Origin: Ruminiclostridium sp.
GTDB taxonomy: Bacteria > Bacillota > Clostridia > Oscillospirales > Ruminococcaceae
Direction of reading: 5' to 3'
Assembly (NCBI GenBank): GCA_017941355.1
Contig: JAGAWN010000284.1
Span: forward strand, 1-43,784
Length of the DNA: 43,784 bases
The notes beneath the pieces were generated by a model, which was not told the DNA's origin, did no database searches, and was given only the letters and a program-made list of their open reading frames with translations. Position 1 is the stretch's first letter. Every line of letters starts with the position of its first letter. A program made the position numbers and the translations under genes. Of the stretch, positions 14,654 to 20,433 are shown in pieces.

Positions 14654-15115
14654 TCATTGACCCGAGGAATAATACTCAATTTCTATATCTGAACGTTCGA
14701 TAAGCACGGAACTCTGATTGAGTTTCGCGATGAGTTCATCGGCTGCCTTATGGACGTTCACGATATCAGCGTCATCGAAGTAGCATACAAGGGTGTATTC
14801 ATGGGTGATGTTGTTACTTTCATCAGTCCATGCACCTGTAGCTTCCTGCATTGTGTAGCCGTAAGGAAAATACGAAAGGCACACGCTGTCCACGATCTCT
14901 TTTGCTTCTTCGCGCGTCATCTCAAGCTTGTATGTGTCCTTATCATTGGTCCCGACATACATAACATACTGTGCCGTACCTTTCTCTTCGGCAGCTGCCG
15001 CAGATTCCGGTGCAGTCTCACTTTTTGCTGTTCCGGCGGTAATAAAGCATATCACAGAACAGCAAAGGCTGACAACAGAGATAATGATCGCTGCGATACC
15101 GATTTTGTTTGACAT
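14654..15115 (-). CDS. Exported DUF3574-like protein of unknown function
   Basis: The 153-aa protein has one N-terminal transmembrane helix or uncleaved signal (about 7-27, with a Cys-Cys pair), a low-complexity linker rich in Ala and Glu to about residue 45, and a small alpha/beta domain. The domain begins YVMYVGTNDKDT and includes the FPYGYTMQEATGAW segment and the strand HEYTLVCYF, matching the layout of DUF3574 proteins, whose role is unknown. The ATG at 15115 has GGAG upstream. Its promoter at 15433-15461 is separated from the gene by a 254-bp inserted element, which therefore becomes its 5' leader. Confidence 0.7.
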   Translation of the reverse strand: MSNKIGIAAIIISVVSLCCSVICFITAGTAKSETAPESAAAAEEKGTAQYVMYVGTNDKDTYKLEMTREEAKEIVDSVCLSYFPYGYTMQEATGAWTDESNNITHEYTLVCYFDDADIVNVHKAADELIAKLNQSSVLIERSDIEIEYYSSGQ

Positions 15116-15176
15116 GATAATTCTCCTTTGCAGTTATCTTTCAGACCGGAATTGCCGGTCACGAATACACTTATTA

Positions 15177-15430
15177 ATGTCTGCTCATCAACCGCGAAAA
15201 GTCTTCATAGCGCAGCTTGAAGGCTTTTCACGGTTGCAAAAGTGCAAGGAAAATTCCCCATTTTTAAATTTTTCCTTGCACTTTTGTTCGTCCGAAGGAC
15301 GAAATGAACTTGACATCAAGGAATGTGTCCGTTGTTCCAATGCGCCGCAGGTGCATTGGAACAACATCTGAAAGTCTGTTTTACAGACTTTCAGGCAATA
15401 ACTGCCAAAAGGCAGTTATTTAGGACACAT
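15177..15430. mobile_element. 254-bp non-autonomous element made of consecutive hairpins, with 6-bp target duplication
   Basis: Bounded by TTATTA direct repeats (15171-15176 and 15431-15436) and imperfect terminal inverted repeats ATGTCTGC / GGACACAT. It holds six stems: 15191-15207/15218-15234 (about 16 bp), 15237-15253/15270-15286 (17 bp, perfect), 15287-15293/15297-15303 (7 bp), 15331-15343/15353-15365 (13 bp), 15368-15379/15383-15394 (12 bp), 15397-15406/15411-15420 (10 bp). The last three are enclosed by ATGTGTCC (15323-15330) pairing with GGACACAT (15423-15430), forming a cloverleaf. It shares its first 70 bases exactly, and its end AGGACACAT, with the element at 19011. No transposase is encoded, so it behaves like a MITE mobilised in trans. 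Confidence 0.85.
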
Positions 15431-15432
15431 TT

Positions 15433-15461
15433 ATTATATCAGAAATATGGTAAATTGTCAA
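15433..15461 (-). promoter_or_regulatory. Promoter of the DUF3574-like gene, abutted by the inserted element
   Basis: Minus strand TTGACA (15461-15456), 17-bp spacer, TGA-extended TATAAT (15438-15433). The -10 lies partly within the target duplication, and the expected start point falls inside the element's right end, so the element would be transcribed as leader RNA. Confidence 0.75.
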
Positions 15462-15645: not shown

Positions 15646-17955
15646 ATGAGAAACAAAACTCTAAAAACAGACATTATTATAACAACAGTGATACTTCTGC
15701 TTATTGCAGGCGGGATAATAACGGCAATGATGTCCTCACGCCGGGGCGACGAAAGCGGTTCATCGCAGGAGGTCACCGCGGAAGTGTCATTGTCCGATTT
15801 CAACGGCATGACTGCCGGCGTACAGACAGGTTCATTCCTCGATCAGATAATACGCAGATCGTTCCCGGATTCCGACATACTTGACCTCAACAATCCCTCC
15901 GATCTGCTCACATCACTGAGAATGAACAAGATAGACTATTTTTTAAGCGGCAGGGACACAGCGGAGATCATCAAAAAAGAGAACCCGGATCTGACCTACA
16001 TCGACCTGCCCGTGGAGACACTGTACGTCGGAGCATTTTTCCCGAAAACCGAGGCAGGAGACAAGCTTCGCGCACAGCTTGACGAATACATAACAAAGCT
16101 TGGTGACAACGGAGATCTCGATAAGATGTACGACTACTGGAAGAGCGATGAATCCTCCGGTGACAGCGTTGATATGAGCGGACTCACCGATATCAACGGT
16201 ACGATAGATTTTGCAAACGATCCGATAGACCCGCCGTATTCATTCATCTCCAACGGTGAATTCGCAGGCATCGAACCTGAAATAATGGCAGGATTCTGCC
16301 GGGACTACGGATACGCACTGAACCTGATAAGCGTGGATCTCAGCGGAATGATACCCGGAGTCGAAACGGGAATGTACGACGTTGCAATGGGCGGTATAGT
16401 TATAACCGATGAACGCAGGCAAAGCGTGAATTTCTCCGTACCGTACAATTCGGGCGAGCTTGTGCTTGTGACGTTAAAGGAAAATGAACAGTCAAAGAAA
16501 CACAATACTGCACCGGGATCCGTAGAGGACAGACCGTTCTCATACTACGCCGAAAACAGAAAGATAGGCGCGATAACCGGCGGTCTGTATGAACTGATGA
16601 TAAGGGAGAGATATCCCGGCGCGGACATATCTCAGTTCAACAATCAGACCGATATGGCAGCGGCTCTGGGAGCGGGTGTAATAGATGCGTTCACCTGCCC
16701 CGAATCCACCGCAAAGGATTTCATGAAAGCCGATCCCTCTCTCACTTATCTGAAAGAAGTATTTGCCGAGATACCGTATGGATTTGCTTTTGAAAAAACA
16801 AAAGAAAAGGAATACCTGCGGGATCAGATGAACGAGTTCCTGAAAAAGCTGCACAGCGACGGCACTTACGATGAACTTGTATCAAAATGGTTCGGTGACG
16901 ACGAGAGCGTAAAAACCGTAGATATGTCGGGGCTTACGGGAGAGAACGGTTCGATACGGTATATCACCGCCCCGACAATGCCGCCGTTTTCGTACATAGC
17001 CAACGGAAACAACGCAGGTCTTGAAATTGATATGACGGTTCGTTTCTGCCGGGAGTACGGCTACTCTCTGACGATCGAAAACGCCGAGTTCGCGTCTCTT
17101 ATACCCGGTATAACCTCCGGAATGTATGATATAGCTTCCGGAACGATAATGATAACCCCCGAACGCGCCGAGAGCGTGAATTTCTCGGACGTTTACTACA
17201 CCGCAAATGCTGTGGCGGTTGTCAAGCGGGAAAACATATCTTCCGAATCCGACGGCAGCGGATTCTTCAGAAGCATTGCCGAAAGCTTTGAGAAGAACTT
17301 TATCCGCGAAAACCGCTGGCAGCTTATAGCTGAGGGTATCGGCACAACCTGCGTCATAACACTGATGTCAACGCTTTTCGGCTCGATACTCGCTTTCGGT
17401 ATATGTATGTTCCGCCGCACAGGAAGCGCGCTCGCAAACGCTGTTTCAAACATCTATGTCAAGCTTCTGCAAGGAACTCCGATAGTAGTTCTGCTTATGA
17501 TACTGTATTATGTGCTGTTAGGCAAATCGGGACTTCCCGCGGTATGGGTGGCAGTCATCGGTTTCTCACTTAACTTCGGAGCATACGCCTCGGAGATAAT
17601 GCGTTCCGGCATTGACAGCATAGACGCAGGGCAGCGGGAAGCGGCTCTTGCCCTCGGTTACAGCGAAAACCAGGCGTTTTTCCGTTTCATATTCCCGCAG
17701 GCCGTCGTGCGGTTCCTCCCGGTCTATAACGGTGAGATAATCTCGCTGCTGAAAGGCACATCTGTCGTTGGTTACATCGCAATACAGGATCTCACCAAAA
17801 TGAGCGATATTATCCGAAGCCGCACCTATGAAGCGTTCTTCCCGCTTATCGCAACGGCGATCATTTATTTCGTTCTCGCGTGGATCATCTCGCTGATACT
17901 CAGATTCATTCTGAAACGGGTATCACCCAAAAGTAAGAAGCATACTTCCGGATAA
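15646..17955 (+). CDS. Polar amino acid ABC transporter: fused substrate-binding domains and permease
   Basis: The 769-aa protein has an N-terminal membrane anchor (about 9-29), extracytoplasmic binding modules (35-535) and a C-terminal permease of the HisM/GlnP type (about 555-755, with the EAALALGYSENQAFFRFIFPQA coupling-loop region in the helices' midst). The binding part is unusual: a lone second lobe (about 48-170), a complete SBP_bac_3 module (about 180-420), then a lone first lobe (about 430-530) joined straight to the permease. The two junctions carry the same VDMSGLT...NG linker (175 and 425). Probable substrates are amino acids such as glutamine. No ATPase gene adjoins it. The start ATG has AGGAAG upstream. 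Confidence 0.85.
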   Translation: MRNKTLKTDIIITTVILLLIAGGIITAMMSSRRGDESGSSQEVTAEVSLSDFNGMTAGVQTGSFLDQIIRRSFPDSDILDLNNPSDLLTSLRMNKIDYFLSGRDTAEIIKKENPDLTYIDLPVETLYVGAFFPKTEAGDKLRAQLDEYITKLGDNGDLDKMYDYWKSDESSGDSVDMSGLTDINGTIDFANDPIDPPYSFISNGEFAGIEPEIMAGFCRDYGYALNLISVDLSGMIPGVETGMYDVAMGGIVITDERRQSVNFSVPYNSGELVLVTLKENEQSKKHNTAPGSVEDRPFSYYAENRKIGAITGGLYELMIRERYPGADISQFNNQTDMAAALGAGVIDAFTCPESTAKDFMKADPSLTYLKEVFAEIPYGFAFEKTKEKEYLRDQMNEFLKKLHSDGTYDELVSKWFGDDESVKTVDMSGLTGENGSIRYITAPTMPPFSYIANGNNAGLEIDMTVRFCREYGYSLTIENAEFASLIPGITSGMYDIASGTIMITPERAESVNFSDVYYTANAVAVVKRENISSESDGSGFFRSIAESFEKNFIRENRWQLIAEGIGTTCVITLMSTLFGSILAFGICMFRRTGSALANAVSNIYVKLLQGTPIVVLLMILYYVLLGKSGLPAVWVAVIGFSLNFGAYASEIMRSGIDSIDAGQREAALALGYSENQAFFRFIFPQAVVRFLPVYNGEIISLLKGTSVVGYIAIQDLTKMSDIIRSRTYEAFFPLIATAIIYFVLAWIISLILRFILKRVSPKSKKHTSG

Positions 17956-18982: not shown

Positions 18983-19010
18983 CTTTGCTCACCTCATTAT
19001 CCCGTACTTA

Positions 19011-19092
19011 ATGTCTGCTCATCAACCGCGAAAAGTCTTCATAGCGCAGCTTGAAGGCTTTTCACGGTTGCAAAAGTGCATTGAGGACACAT
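19011..19092. mobile_element. 82-bp short copy of the hairpin element, with 6-bp target duplication
   Basis: Flanked by TACTTA direct repeats (19005-19010 and 19093-19098). The first 70 bases are identical to 15177-15246, including the first hairpin, and the last nine (AGGACACAT) match the right end of the long copy; the five internal hairpins are missing. It is inserted precisely at the MATE stop codon: the right-hand duplication contains that TAA. Confidence 0.85.
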
Positions 19093-19095
19093 TAC

Positions 19096-20433
19096 TTATT
19101 CTCTGAGCTTTCTGTAAACCGTAAGTCTCATCGTGATGTAGCACGCCAATCCTCCGACTATGTTCGATATCGGTTCCGCAATGAACACGCCGTTCACGCC
19201 GAACCCTATATGCGGCAGTATGAGCGTAAGCGGGATAACTATTATCACCTTACGGAGCAGAGAGAAGAAGATCGCGTGTCTCGCGTCACCGAGAGCCTGA
19301 AATGTGGATTGACCAGCAAACTGGAACGTCATGAACACAAATCCGAAGAAGTAAGTTTTTATAGCTTCGGCACCCGGCGCTATAAGCGTTGCGTCATCGG
19401 AAAATATCCTGAACCAGAAAGCCGGGAATATAACTATGAGCAGCCATGCCGCCACTGTATATACCGCTCCTGCAAGAGTGTTGAACCGTATCGACTGCCT
19501 GACGCGGTCATACCTCCCTGCCCCGTAGTTGTAGCTCATTACCGGCTGCGCGCCGTTGATAAGTCCGCTTATAGGCAGGAAGAAAACATCGCGGACGGAG
19601 TTCAGAACTGTCATTATGCCGACATAAATATCACCGCCGTACATCTGGAGCGTGGAATTGCAGGCAGCCTGAACGAAACACGCTGTACCCTGCATGACAA
19701 AATTCGATACTCCCAGCTTGCAGATATCCTTTGTTATGGGAAGATCAATACGGACAAAGGATCTTCTCAGCGGTATCGGTGCTTTCCGTATAAGGAAATG
19801 CAGTATCCAGACCGTCGAAACCGCCTGACTTATGACTGTTGCCGCAGCGGCTCCGGATATACCGAATCCGAAAGCGAATATGAACAGCGGGTCAAGCGCT
19901 GTATTCATCGCCGCGCCGATCACGGTGGTAAACATTCCGGTCTTAGGGAAGCCCTGTGCGCTTATGTAGCTGTTAAGTCCGGTGGTGAGCATCGAAAAGG
20001 CCGTTCCGGCAAGATACACTCTCAGGTAATCCGCCGCGTATCCGTATGACACATCGCTTGCACCGAGCATATACAGTATCGGCTTGCATAAAAGATATCC
20101 GGTCACGGTAAGTATCACCGCCGATGTTATCAGCAGACAGCATGAGTTACCGAGTATCTTCTGCGCTCTTTCGGTGTCCCTGCGCCCGTTTGCTATAGAA
20201 AACAAAGGGACTCCGCCTATGCCGAACAATGCCGCAAATGCCACTATGAATGTGATTATCGGGAAAGTCAGCCCCACTCCCGTCAGTGCGGTGCTGTCCC
20301 CGCCGTCCATGTGTCCTATGTATATACGGTCAACTACATTATAAAGGAGCTGAACCAGCTGGGCAAGCATGAGCGGCACTGCCTGAGCCAGCGTGATCCT
20401 CCATACCGGACCTTGTGAAAAATCCCGGTTCAT
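19096..20433 (-). CDS. MATE family efflux transporter
   Basis: The 445-aa protein has about twelve hydrophobic helices in two homologous MatE halves (about 10-170 and 235-400), with the family's N-terminal GPVWRITLAQAVPLMLAQLV and a PVMSYNYGAG motif opening the second half. MATE proteins export drugs or metabolites using Na+ or H+ gradients; the substrate is unknown. The start is a normal ATG but its ribosome binding site is weak (AAAGAAG about 10 bases upstream). Its stop codon is part of the duplication made by the 82-bp element at 19011. Confidence 0.92.
   Translation of the reverse strand: MNRDFSQGPVWRITLAQAVPLMLAQLVQLLYNVVDRIYIGHMDGGDSTALTGVGLTFPIITFIVAFAALFGIGGVPLFSIANGRRDTERAQKILGNSCCLLITSAVILTVTGYLLCKPILYMLGASDVSYGYAADYLRVYLAGTAFSMLTTGLNSYISAQGFPKTGMFTTVIGAAMNTALDPLFIFAFGFGISGAAAATVISQAVSTVWILHFLIRKAPIPLRRSFVRIDLPITKDICKLGVSNFVMQGTACFVQAACNSTLQMYGGDIYVGIMTVLNSVRDVFFLPISGLINGAQPVMSYNYGAGRYDRVRQSIRFNTLAGAVYTVAAWLLIVIFPAFWFRIFSDDATLIAPGAEAIKTYFFGFVFMTFQFAGQSTFQALGDARHAIFFSLLRKVIIVIPLTLILPHIGFGVNGVFIAEPISNIVGGLACYITMRLTVYRKLRE

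Follow-up and report, generated by a model that had tools for sequence, protein, structure and literature searches.

A MITE of two tandem cloverleafs, with relatives across a bacterial order and probably moved in trans by an IS5-family transposase

What is the hairpin-rich, gene-less element that lies between a DUF3574 gene (14654-15115, minus strand) and a gene whose product has solute-binding and permease domains (15646-17955, plus strand) in a Ruminiclostridium genome, how is it moved, and why do its stems stay paired? A sequence-only reading of the window, i.e. of the whole stretch of 43,784 nucleotides analysed, had described a mobile element of 254 bp at 15177-15430 with six stems between exact TTATTA duplications. 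It suggested selection for an RNA or single-stranded DNA structure and proposed a search for further copies in related genomes, empty sites, compensatory changes and a transposase with matching ends. Stems and duplications (15171-15176 and 15431-15436) are located as described, and no predicted gene overlaps the element. The RNA fold energy of positions 15165-15445 is -137 kcal/mol as compared to -60.3 +/- 4.5 for 200 dinucleotide shuffles, none of which was as good (0/200; z ~ -17), and the minus strand folds equally well (-139.4). The right closing stem noticed earlier (15323-15330 with 15423-15430) is present. However, the architecture comprises two tandem four-way cloverleafs separated by a 6-nt linker, with six hairpins in all, rather than three hairpins followed by one cloverleaf: the first three hairpins, A, B and C, have a closing stem around them as well, formed by ATGTC.GCTCAT (15177-15188) and ATGAAC..GACAT (15304-15316). 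The other rows of the alignment described below read ATGAGC in the 3' arm of this stem. The window copy is the sole one among 35 distinct rows with a mismatch there (column 8 x column 134), which may be the reason why these hairpins were read as unenclosed. When copies were folded one by one, most other full-length copies adopted the two-cloverleaf fold. The ends are imperfect terminal inverted repeats (ATGTSTSCTCA), and the shorter relative reported at 19011 was confirmed. The features are:

15171-15176, plus strand: left target-site duplication TTATTA, read from the sequence
15177-15188, plus strand: left terminal inverted repeat, at the same time 5' arm of the left closing stem (ATGTC.GCTCAT); folds and covariation, IS5-family ends similar
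15189-15236, plus strand: hairpin A; fold, both-side changes in 12 of 22 pairs, apex inverted in copy L113
15237-15286, plus strand: hairpin B with core GTGCAAGG...CCTTGCAC; its distance from the left end equals that of the hairpin upstream of the IS transposase gene
15287-15303, plus strand: hairpin C; fold and covariation
15304-15316, plus strand: 3' arm of the left closing stem, ATGAACTTGACAT; folds of copies, alignment and covariation
15317-15322, plus strand: 6-nt linker CAAGGA between the cloverleafs; alignment A1
15323-15330, plus strand: 5' arm of the right closing stem, ATGTGTCC; sequence and covariation
15331-15365, plus strand: hairpin D; fold and covariation, loop inverted in L063, double-hairpin insert in L128, L130 and L194
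15368-15394, plus strand: hairpin E; fold and covariation
15397-15420, plus strand: hairpin F; fold and covariation, loop inverted in L136
15423-15430, plus strand: 3' arm of the right closing stem, at the same time right terminal inverted repeat, GGACACAT; sequence, covariation and comparison with IS ends
15431-15436, plus strand: right target-site duplication TTATTA, overlapping a -10 box; sequence and promoter scan
15433-15461, minus strand: promoter-like TTGACA-17-TATAAT, reading leftward into the element and towards the gene at 14654-15115; sequence
19011-19092, plus strand: internally deleted copy of 82 bp that kept hairpin A, with TACTTA at 19005-19010 and 19093-19098; sequence

The element is a real, high-copy MITE. 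Its own genome yielded at least 81 match pieces, 40 of the 71 first-look candidates being scored; many pieces lie at contig ends, so the element probably breaks assemblies. Further copies exist in related genomes, as matches were obtained in 21 of 199 genomes (the own one included, with up to three candidates scored per genome), all belonging to one genus. One of these matches (L051 in G055, E 9e-4) was discarded, the element being absent at that locus. An exact-pattern search of a collection of 84,980 species returned at least 86 stretches; all matches listed belong to MAGs with Clostridia, Ruminococcus, Ruminiclostridium or Ruminococcaceae in their titles, and several of these MAGs come from the rumen. 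Phages and plasmids gave no match to the element, and viral contigs gave 0 matches to a 28-letter pattern.

Mobility is borne out by the insertion sites. Among 94 candidate insertions with both ends, 54 of which measure 251-255 bp, 59 are flanked by exact 6-bp duplications as compared to a mean of 16.1 and a maximum of 25 upon shuffled pairing; the 94 include a few chance pairings, 12 of them having four or more duplication mismatches. Copies diverge from the window copy by up to about 30%. The target consensus is TWNTTAYA, i.e. T-W-N-T-T-A followed by T or C and then mostly A. One natural empty site was found, where the orthologous position of another species has a single target copy beside a stop codon; for the window copies, a search of 41 genomes revealed no clean empty site, and G002:C198 has both an element and, 1.8 kb away, a sequence that matches the downstream gene at 76%. 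None of the 58 insertions for which genes were predicted to the left and right (drawn from 78 with at most one duplication mismatch) is located inside a predicted gene, and the median distances to the left and right genes are 61 and 99 bp, respectively. At one locus (L059), insertion at a stop codon lengthens the gene by codons MSAHQP, the new stop being inside hairpin A.

Tandem copies with a common duplication occur, and in L118, L120, L123, L157 and L079 the newer copy of a tandem sits at the duplication bordering the end of the older one. In the own genome, a different palindromic repeat (GGCAGAAAAAATGCCCGTTACTG...CAACGGGC) adjoins a truncated element copy in L100 and L105 and is present in tandem in L100. 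Of 82 copies with no more than two duplication mismatches, 29 have internal deletions, which by eye often lie at short direct repeats and affect different backbones; such frequent and varied deletions fit decay after insertion. L128, L130 and L194 carry an extra hairpin-rich stretch of ~68 nt in the loop of hairpin D, on different backbones, as if hairpins accrete, and the chimeric copies L122 and L005 join halves or hairpins of different subfamilies.

A lead to the mobiliser came from a search of three genomes for the terminal repeat. At the locus thus found (L300), the repeat lies ~120 bp before a truncated transposase frame matching Pfam DUF772 and NCBIfam NF033578 (IS5 family, E 1.6e-97). 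Matching or similar ends together with 6-bp duplications were present in four of five IS records examined, plus one IS in the genus of the window; the fifth record, ISLrh2 (L309), showed none of these ends. The duplication is TAACTA for a Christensenellales phage IS (L306), TAATTA for an IS on the Ruminococcus albus plasmid pRUMAL02 (L307) and TATTTA for the IS of Enterococcus lactis (L308) and Tetragenococcus halophilus (L310), an 8-bp reading in the latter two (TTATTTAA, ends one base further in) scoring slightly above the 6-bp one. The proteins of these four match NF033578 or, including the phage one, pass its cut-off. The ends of the phage IS agree with those of the MITE at 14 of 16 positions on the left and 13 of 16 on the right, and 13 matches were reached by a fraction of 5e-5 of 20,000 random 16-mers. 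The same-genus IS (L312) has a TAATTA duplication, GTCTCTCCTCA ends and a reading frame that appears interrupted, and its ends match those of the window MITE at only 11 of 16 positions. In another genome (L316 in G334), an IS and a neighbouring 253-bp MITE, separated by TACTTA, have right ends that are identical over 16 of 16 bases. Several further transposase fragments have GTCTCTCCTCA or ATGTCTACTGAA as their end, next to T..TTA or T..CTA, which resemble the target. A scan of viral contigs with the phage transposase detected one further locus (L342), which shows the end motifs, as does phage record L311. The latter comes from human faeces, and GTGTCTGCTCAACA, at the end of its transposase region, is also the sequence found at the left end of the G019 MITE subfamily.

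IS and MITE also share an internal motif. In six of seven IS left ends (two of one lineage), a motif of the GTGCAAG type begins 66-68 nt in from the end, as compared to 66 nt in the MITE, and in five of the seven it lies in a hairpin of 10-12 bp. The IS gene comes within 4-30 bp of the right end, so that the right cloverleaf is without counterpart in the IS. The left ends of L312 and L314 contain CTCTCCT, which is complementary to the ribosome-binding region AGGAGAG; other IS elements hide this region in read-through transcripts, and these might do likewise.

Transposase and element tend to occur together: matches at E < 1e-9 were obtained in 11 of 41 element-bearing genomes, being absent from the remaining 30, vs 0 of 39 without the element (Fisher p = 0.0005), this line having been chosen after the data were seen and the element-free set being all of one genus. 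At E < 1e-30, seven of the 41 were left, three of 20 in the genus of the window, and weaker matches occur in four element-free genomes. Two of 80 genomes pass the curated cut-off of NF033578, many matches being fragments at contig ends. This co-occurrence is support, not proof. With respect to the transposase proposed earlier, an IS group with fitting ends was thus found, but the window's own genome (G000) yielded no NF033578 transposase. Its one DDE_Tnp_1 match, which we take to be IS1182-like, has ends unlike those of the MITE. Five DDE_Tnp_1 matches in four of 17 related genomes revealed nothing convincing as to MITE ends beside them at first look; one of them (L218 in G007) turned out to be a transposase tail (NF033578) whose right end reads GTCTCTCCTCA. 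The left-end pattern hit G000 41 times. Re-reading confirmed a match at 15 of 16 further places fetched there; inspection of 330 nt at each identified them as MITEs, truncated copies or chance matches. G011 and G058 together had 40 hits, of which 20 among the matches listed were all MITE copies; six more copies were already in the collected set. A search of 0.97 Mb of loci for elements of 420-8000 bp with matching ends and duplications returned just one pair of neighbouring MITEs. We conclude that the element is very probably served by an IS5-family transposase.

Relatives were detected outside the genus. A covariance model (R1) built from 22 sequences of the left cloverleaf had hits in 14 of 126 genera of the family (19 of 396 genomes) and in 12 of 295 genomes of the order, families f14 and f20 among them; the own genome and G019 count in both tallies, and we doubt the hits in the four weakest genomes (E > 2e-4). 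Folding of 25 loci, judged by eye, gave 16 with three hairpins per half, three reduced or unclear ones, three cut at contig ends and three weak ones without the architecture; matches L257, L258 and L279 (E > 2e-4) were rejected since the architecture is absent. GTGCAAG...CTTGCAC is found in hairpin B of 16 of 19 complete relatives (by eye). Identity to the window copy is 47-74% in an alignment of 23 relatives, 15 of which have exact duplications, a figure that is biased upward as the right end was the best of about 160 positions. The superfamily is spread over one bacterial order, its carriers including many related bacteria from gut and rumen, and its shape is kept despite extensive sequence replacement. 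The G019 subfamily (L048, L091, L092) has a left closing stem of 9 bp (GTGTCTGCT/AGCAGACAC) and, in two of the three copies, duplications TAATAA and TACATA (by eye).

How stems change was followed in alignment A1, comprising 37 copies (35 distinct) and omitting the duplicate loci L001, L031 and L052 and the deleted copy L010. Pairing is retained in 94.3% of 3627 stem cells, and 40 of 104 pairs have changed on both sides. The compensatory changes sought are there: both-side-changed cells number 255, vs 82.8 +/- 7.3 in shuffles and at most 70 when partners were slid. Within subfamilies, we counted 91 single, 22 double Watson-Crick and five other double stem changes, but 45, 43 and 13, respectively, between nearest subfamily consensuses (p = 2e-5 vs within). 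One-sided changes therefore arise but seldom found new subfamilies, although double changes increase with divergence by themselves; the rarity of one-sided founders reflects selection, slow repair or both. Between near neighbours, 39 changes fall in 50 unpaired and 103 in 208 paired columns.

The strands behave alike. Stem cells with G.T and A.C number 73 and 55 in A1, and the two strands are equally stable in 48 full-length copies (p = 0.20; ~3 G.U pairs per fold) as well as in 23 relatives from other genera (p = 0.35; 3.3 and 4.4% G.U). G.U tolerance limited to one strand, the mark of a one-strand functional RNA, was not observed, the distribution being near-symmetric, and Rfam families at gathering score gave 0 matches in the window or in four relatives. 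Since both strands fold equally well and contain few G.U pairs, pairing looks like a property of the DNA. Of the selected structure suggested at the outset, the covarying stems are supported, whereas a one-strand RNA function is not.

That the element nevertheless yields a structured RNA acting in transposition control, mRNA stability or a host role, with the -10 box of promoters abutting its right end, was considered because of its stable, covarying fold and its flanks. On the minus strand, a perfect TTGACA-17-TATAAT directly borders the right end of the window copy and is directed into the minus strand of the element, so the transcript of the DUF3574 gene may start inside the element. Right flanks with a -35 match of at least 5/6 at spacings of 15-19 were found in 10 of 76 cases vs 2.1 in shuffles, and the left gene is correctly oriented in six of six promoter-bearing insertions with genes called. 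However, at spacings of 16-18 the rate for insertions (9/76; eight distinct flanks, L118 counted twice) is equalled by that of empty noncoding TWNTTAYA sites (11/91). We therefore reject promoter targeting: promoters get hit because the target resembles a -10 box, not through promoter recognition. In view also of mismatches and energies lacking strand asymmetry and of the absent Rfam matches, we regard the RNA reading as improbable. Far more improbable still, to the point of deserving hardly any credence, is movement as single-stranded DNA by a Y1/HUH transposase of the IS200/IS605 or REP/RAYT type. It would suit the richness in hairpins and the conserved TTA left of the left end, yet the clear 6-bp duplications already largely refute it and set the element apart from IS200/IS605 or REP elements. 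We know of no Y1/HUH mechanism that makes target duplications, and Y1_Tnp was present in six of 18 genomes searched, two of these matches being partial, with none in the genome of the window.

A more serious contender is replication template switching (quasi-palindrome correction) as the main reason why the palindromes persist, one arm being copied onto the other; covariation would then be explained without the fold having a selected function. Homogenised arms and inverted spacers are named among its outcomes (PMC8604942, available part), and such patterns are reported in RNA genes (PMC8794818, available part). Indeed, hairpins A, D and F exhibit exact loop inversions in one copy each (L113, L063 and L136, respectively), changes also come as blocks in both arms, and the equal stability of the strands with G.U pairs at only about 3-4% would agree with it. 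However, differences between nearest neighbours are mostly one-sided (73 single vs 11 double Watson-Crick and four other double), so that arm correction is not fast, and three hairpins per half are kept in 16 of 25 distant loci (by eye) despite frequent internal deletions. We consider template switching as the main cause quite possible but lean against it; it may help to preserve pairing.

A more tentative idea, which we think rather unlikely, regards the twin cloverleaf as the working DNA structure of a two-unit transposon. Its halves would derive from one inverted-end MITE, the linker would be the relic of a shared duplication, and the closing stems, by folding back, would offer the transposase double-stranded terminal repeats also while the element is single-stranded in replication. 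The linker measures 6 nt in 37 of 37 rows of A1 (CAAGGA in 31, CAAGAA in three, three others once each), and its agreement with the duplication length suggests an origin as a tandem dimer. Other subfamilies, e.g. that of G019, have different spacings between the halves. A strict pattern detected no solo half-elements with flanking duplications in the collected loci, which counts against the idea. If true, this would be a transposon class selected for DNA shape rather than sequence.

Taken together, the element is probably a non-autonomous DNA transposon (MITE) of an order-wide superfamily, moved in trans by an IS5-family (NF033578) transposase, its ends and hairpin B being relics of such an IS. 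A transposase of this group would act on the imperfect inverted ends (ATGTCTGCTCATCAAC / ATGTGTCCTCAATAAC), cut the element out and join it at AT-rich intergenic TWNTTAYA sites, which would result in the 6-bp duplication. While ends and hairpin B look like IS remnants, the remaining hairpins would be the MITE's own. The closing stems are predicted to pair each terminal repeat with an inverted copy inside the element, giving the two cloverleafs. An intact folded DNA form would favour transposition, broken copies would then decay and rarely found new families, and replication template switching might help to repair the arms.

As in MITEs, the element is short and gene-less and has terminal inverted repeats, fixed 6-bp duplications and ends in common with an autonomous IS. 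With the IS of the NF033578 group it has in common terminal repeats that match or are similar, duplications of 6 bp that are of the TWNTTA type and, for five of seven left ends, a GTGCAAG/CTTGCAC-type hairpin at equal distance; in contrast to these it has no transposase gene, and its hairpins other than B are without counterpart in the seven IS left ends folded. The bcr1 repeat of the Bacillus cereus group has traits of a mobile element. It is likewise dispersed with a predicted conserved fold but shorter (147-167 bp; PMC2267715, available part), being set apart from our element by description only. RUP of pneumococcus, tied to IS630-Spn1 through its ends, and Correia elements are also short, gene-less and repeated, with terminal repeats and base-paired transcripts, but form long stem-loops in units of ~100-200 bp according to the available part of PMC2229807, whereas ours comprises 254 bp, two cloverleafs and six hairpins and, unlike RUP and Correia as described there, has 6-bp duplications and relatives across an order. 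CIR elements (Caulobacter, Brucella) resemble it in having two paired arms and a linker, but are described in the same part as two long inverted repeats, no multi-hairpin cloverleafs, with duplications marked unknown (PMC2229807). We found no described equivalent of the element in the literature searched, whose coverage mostly excludes subscription journals. The twin-cloverleaf DNA architecture with relatives across an order is unusual. It illustrates that covariation in a repeated palindromic element is by itself no proof of a functional RNA, and the six-hairpin shape, outlasting its sequence, offers many natural copies in which to ask whether it is selection or template switching that maintains perfect hairpins, as has been asked for RNA genes (PMC8794818, available part).
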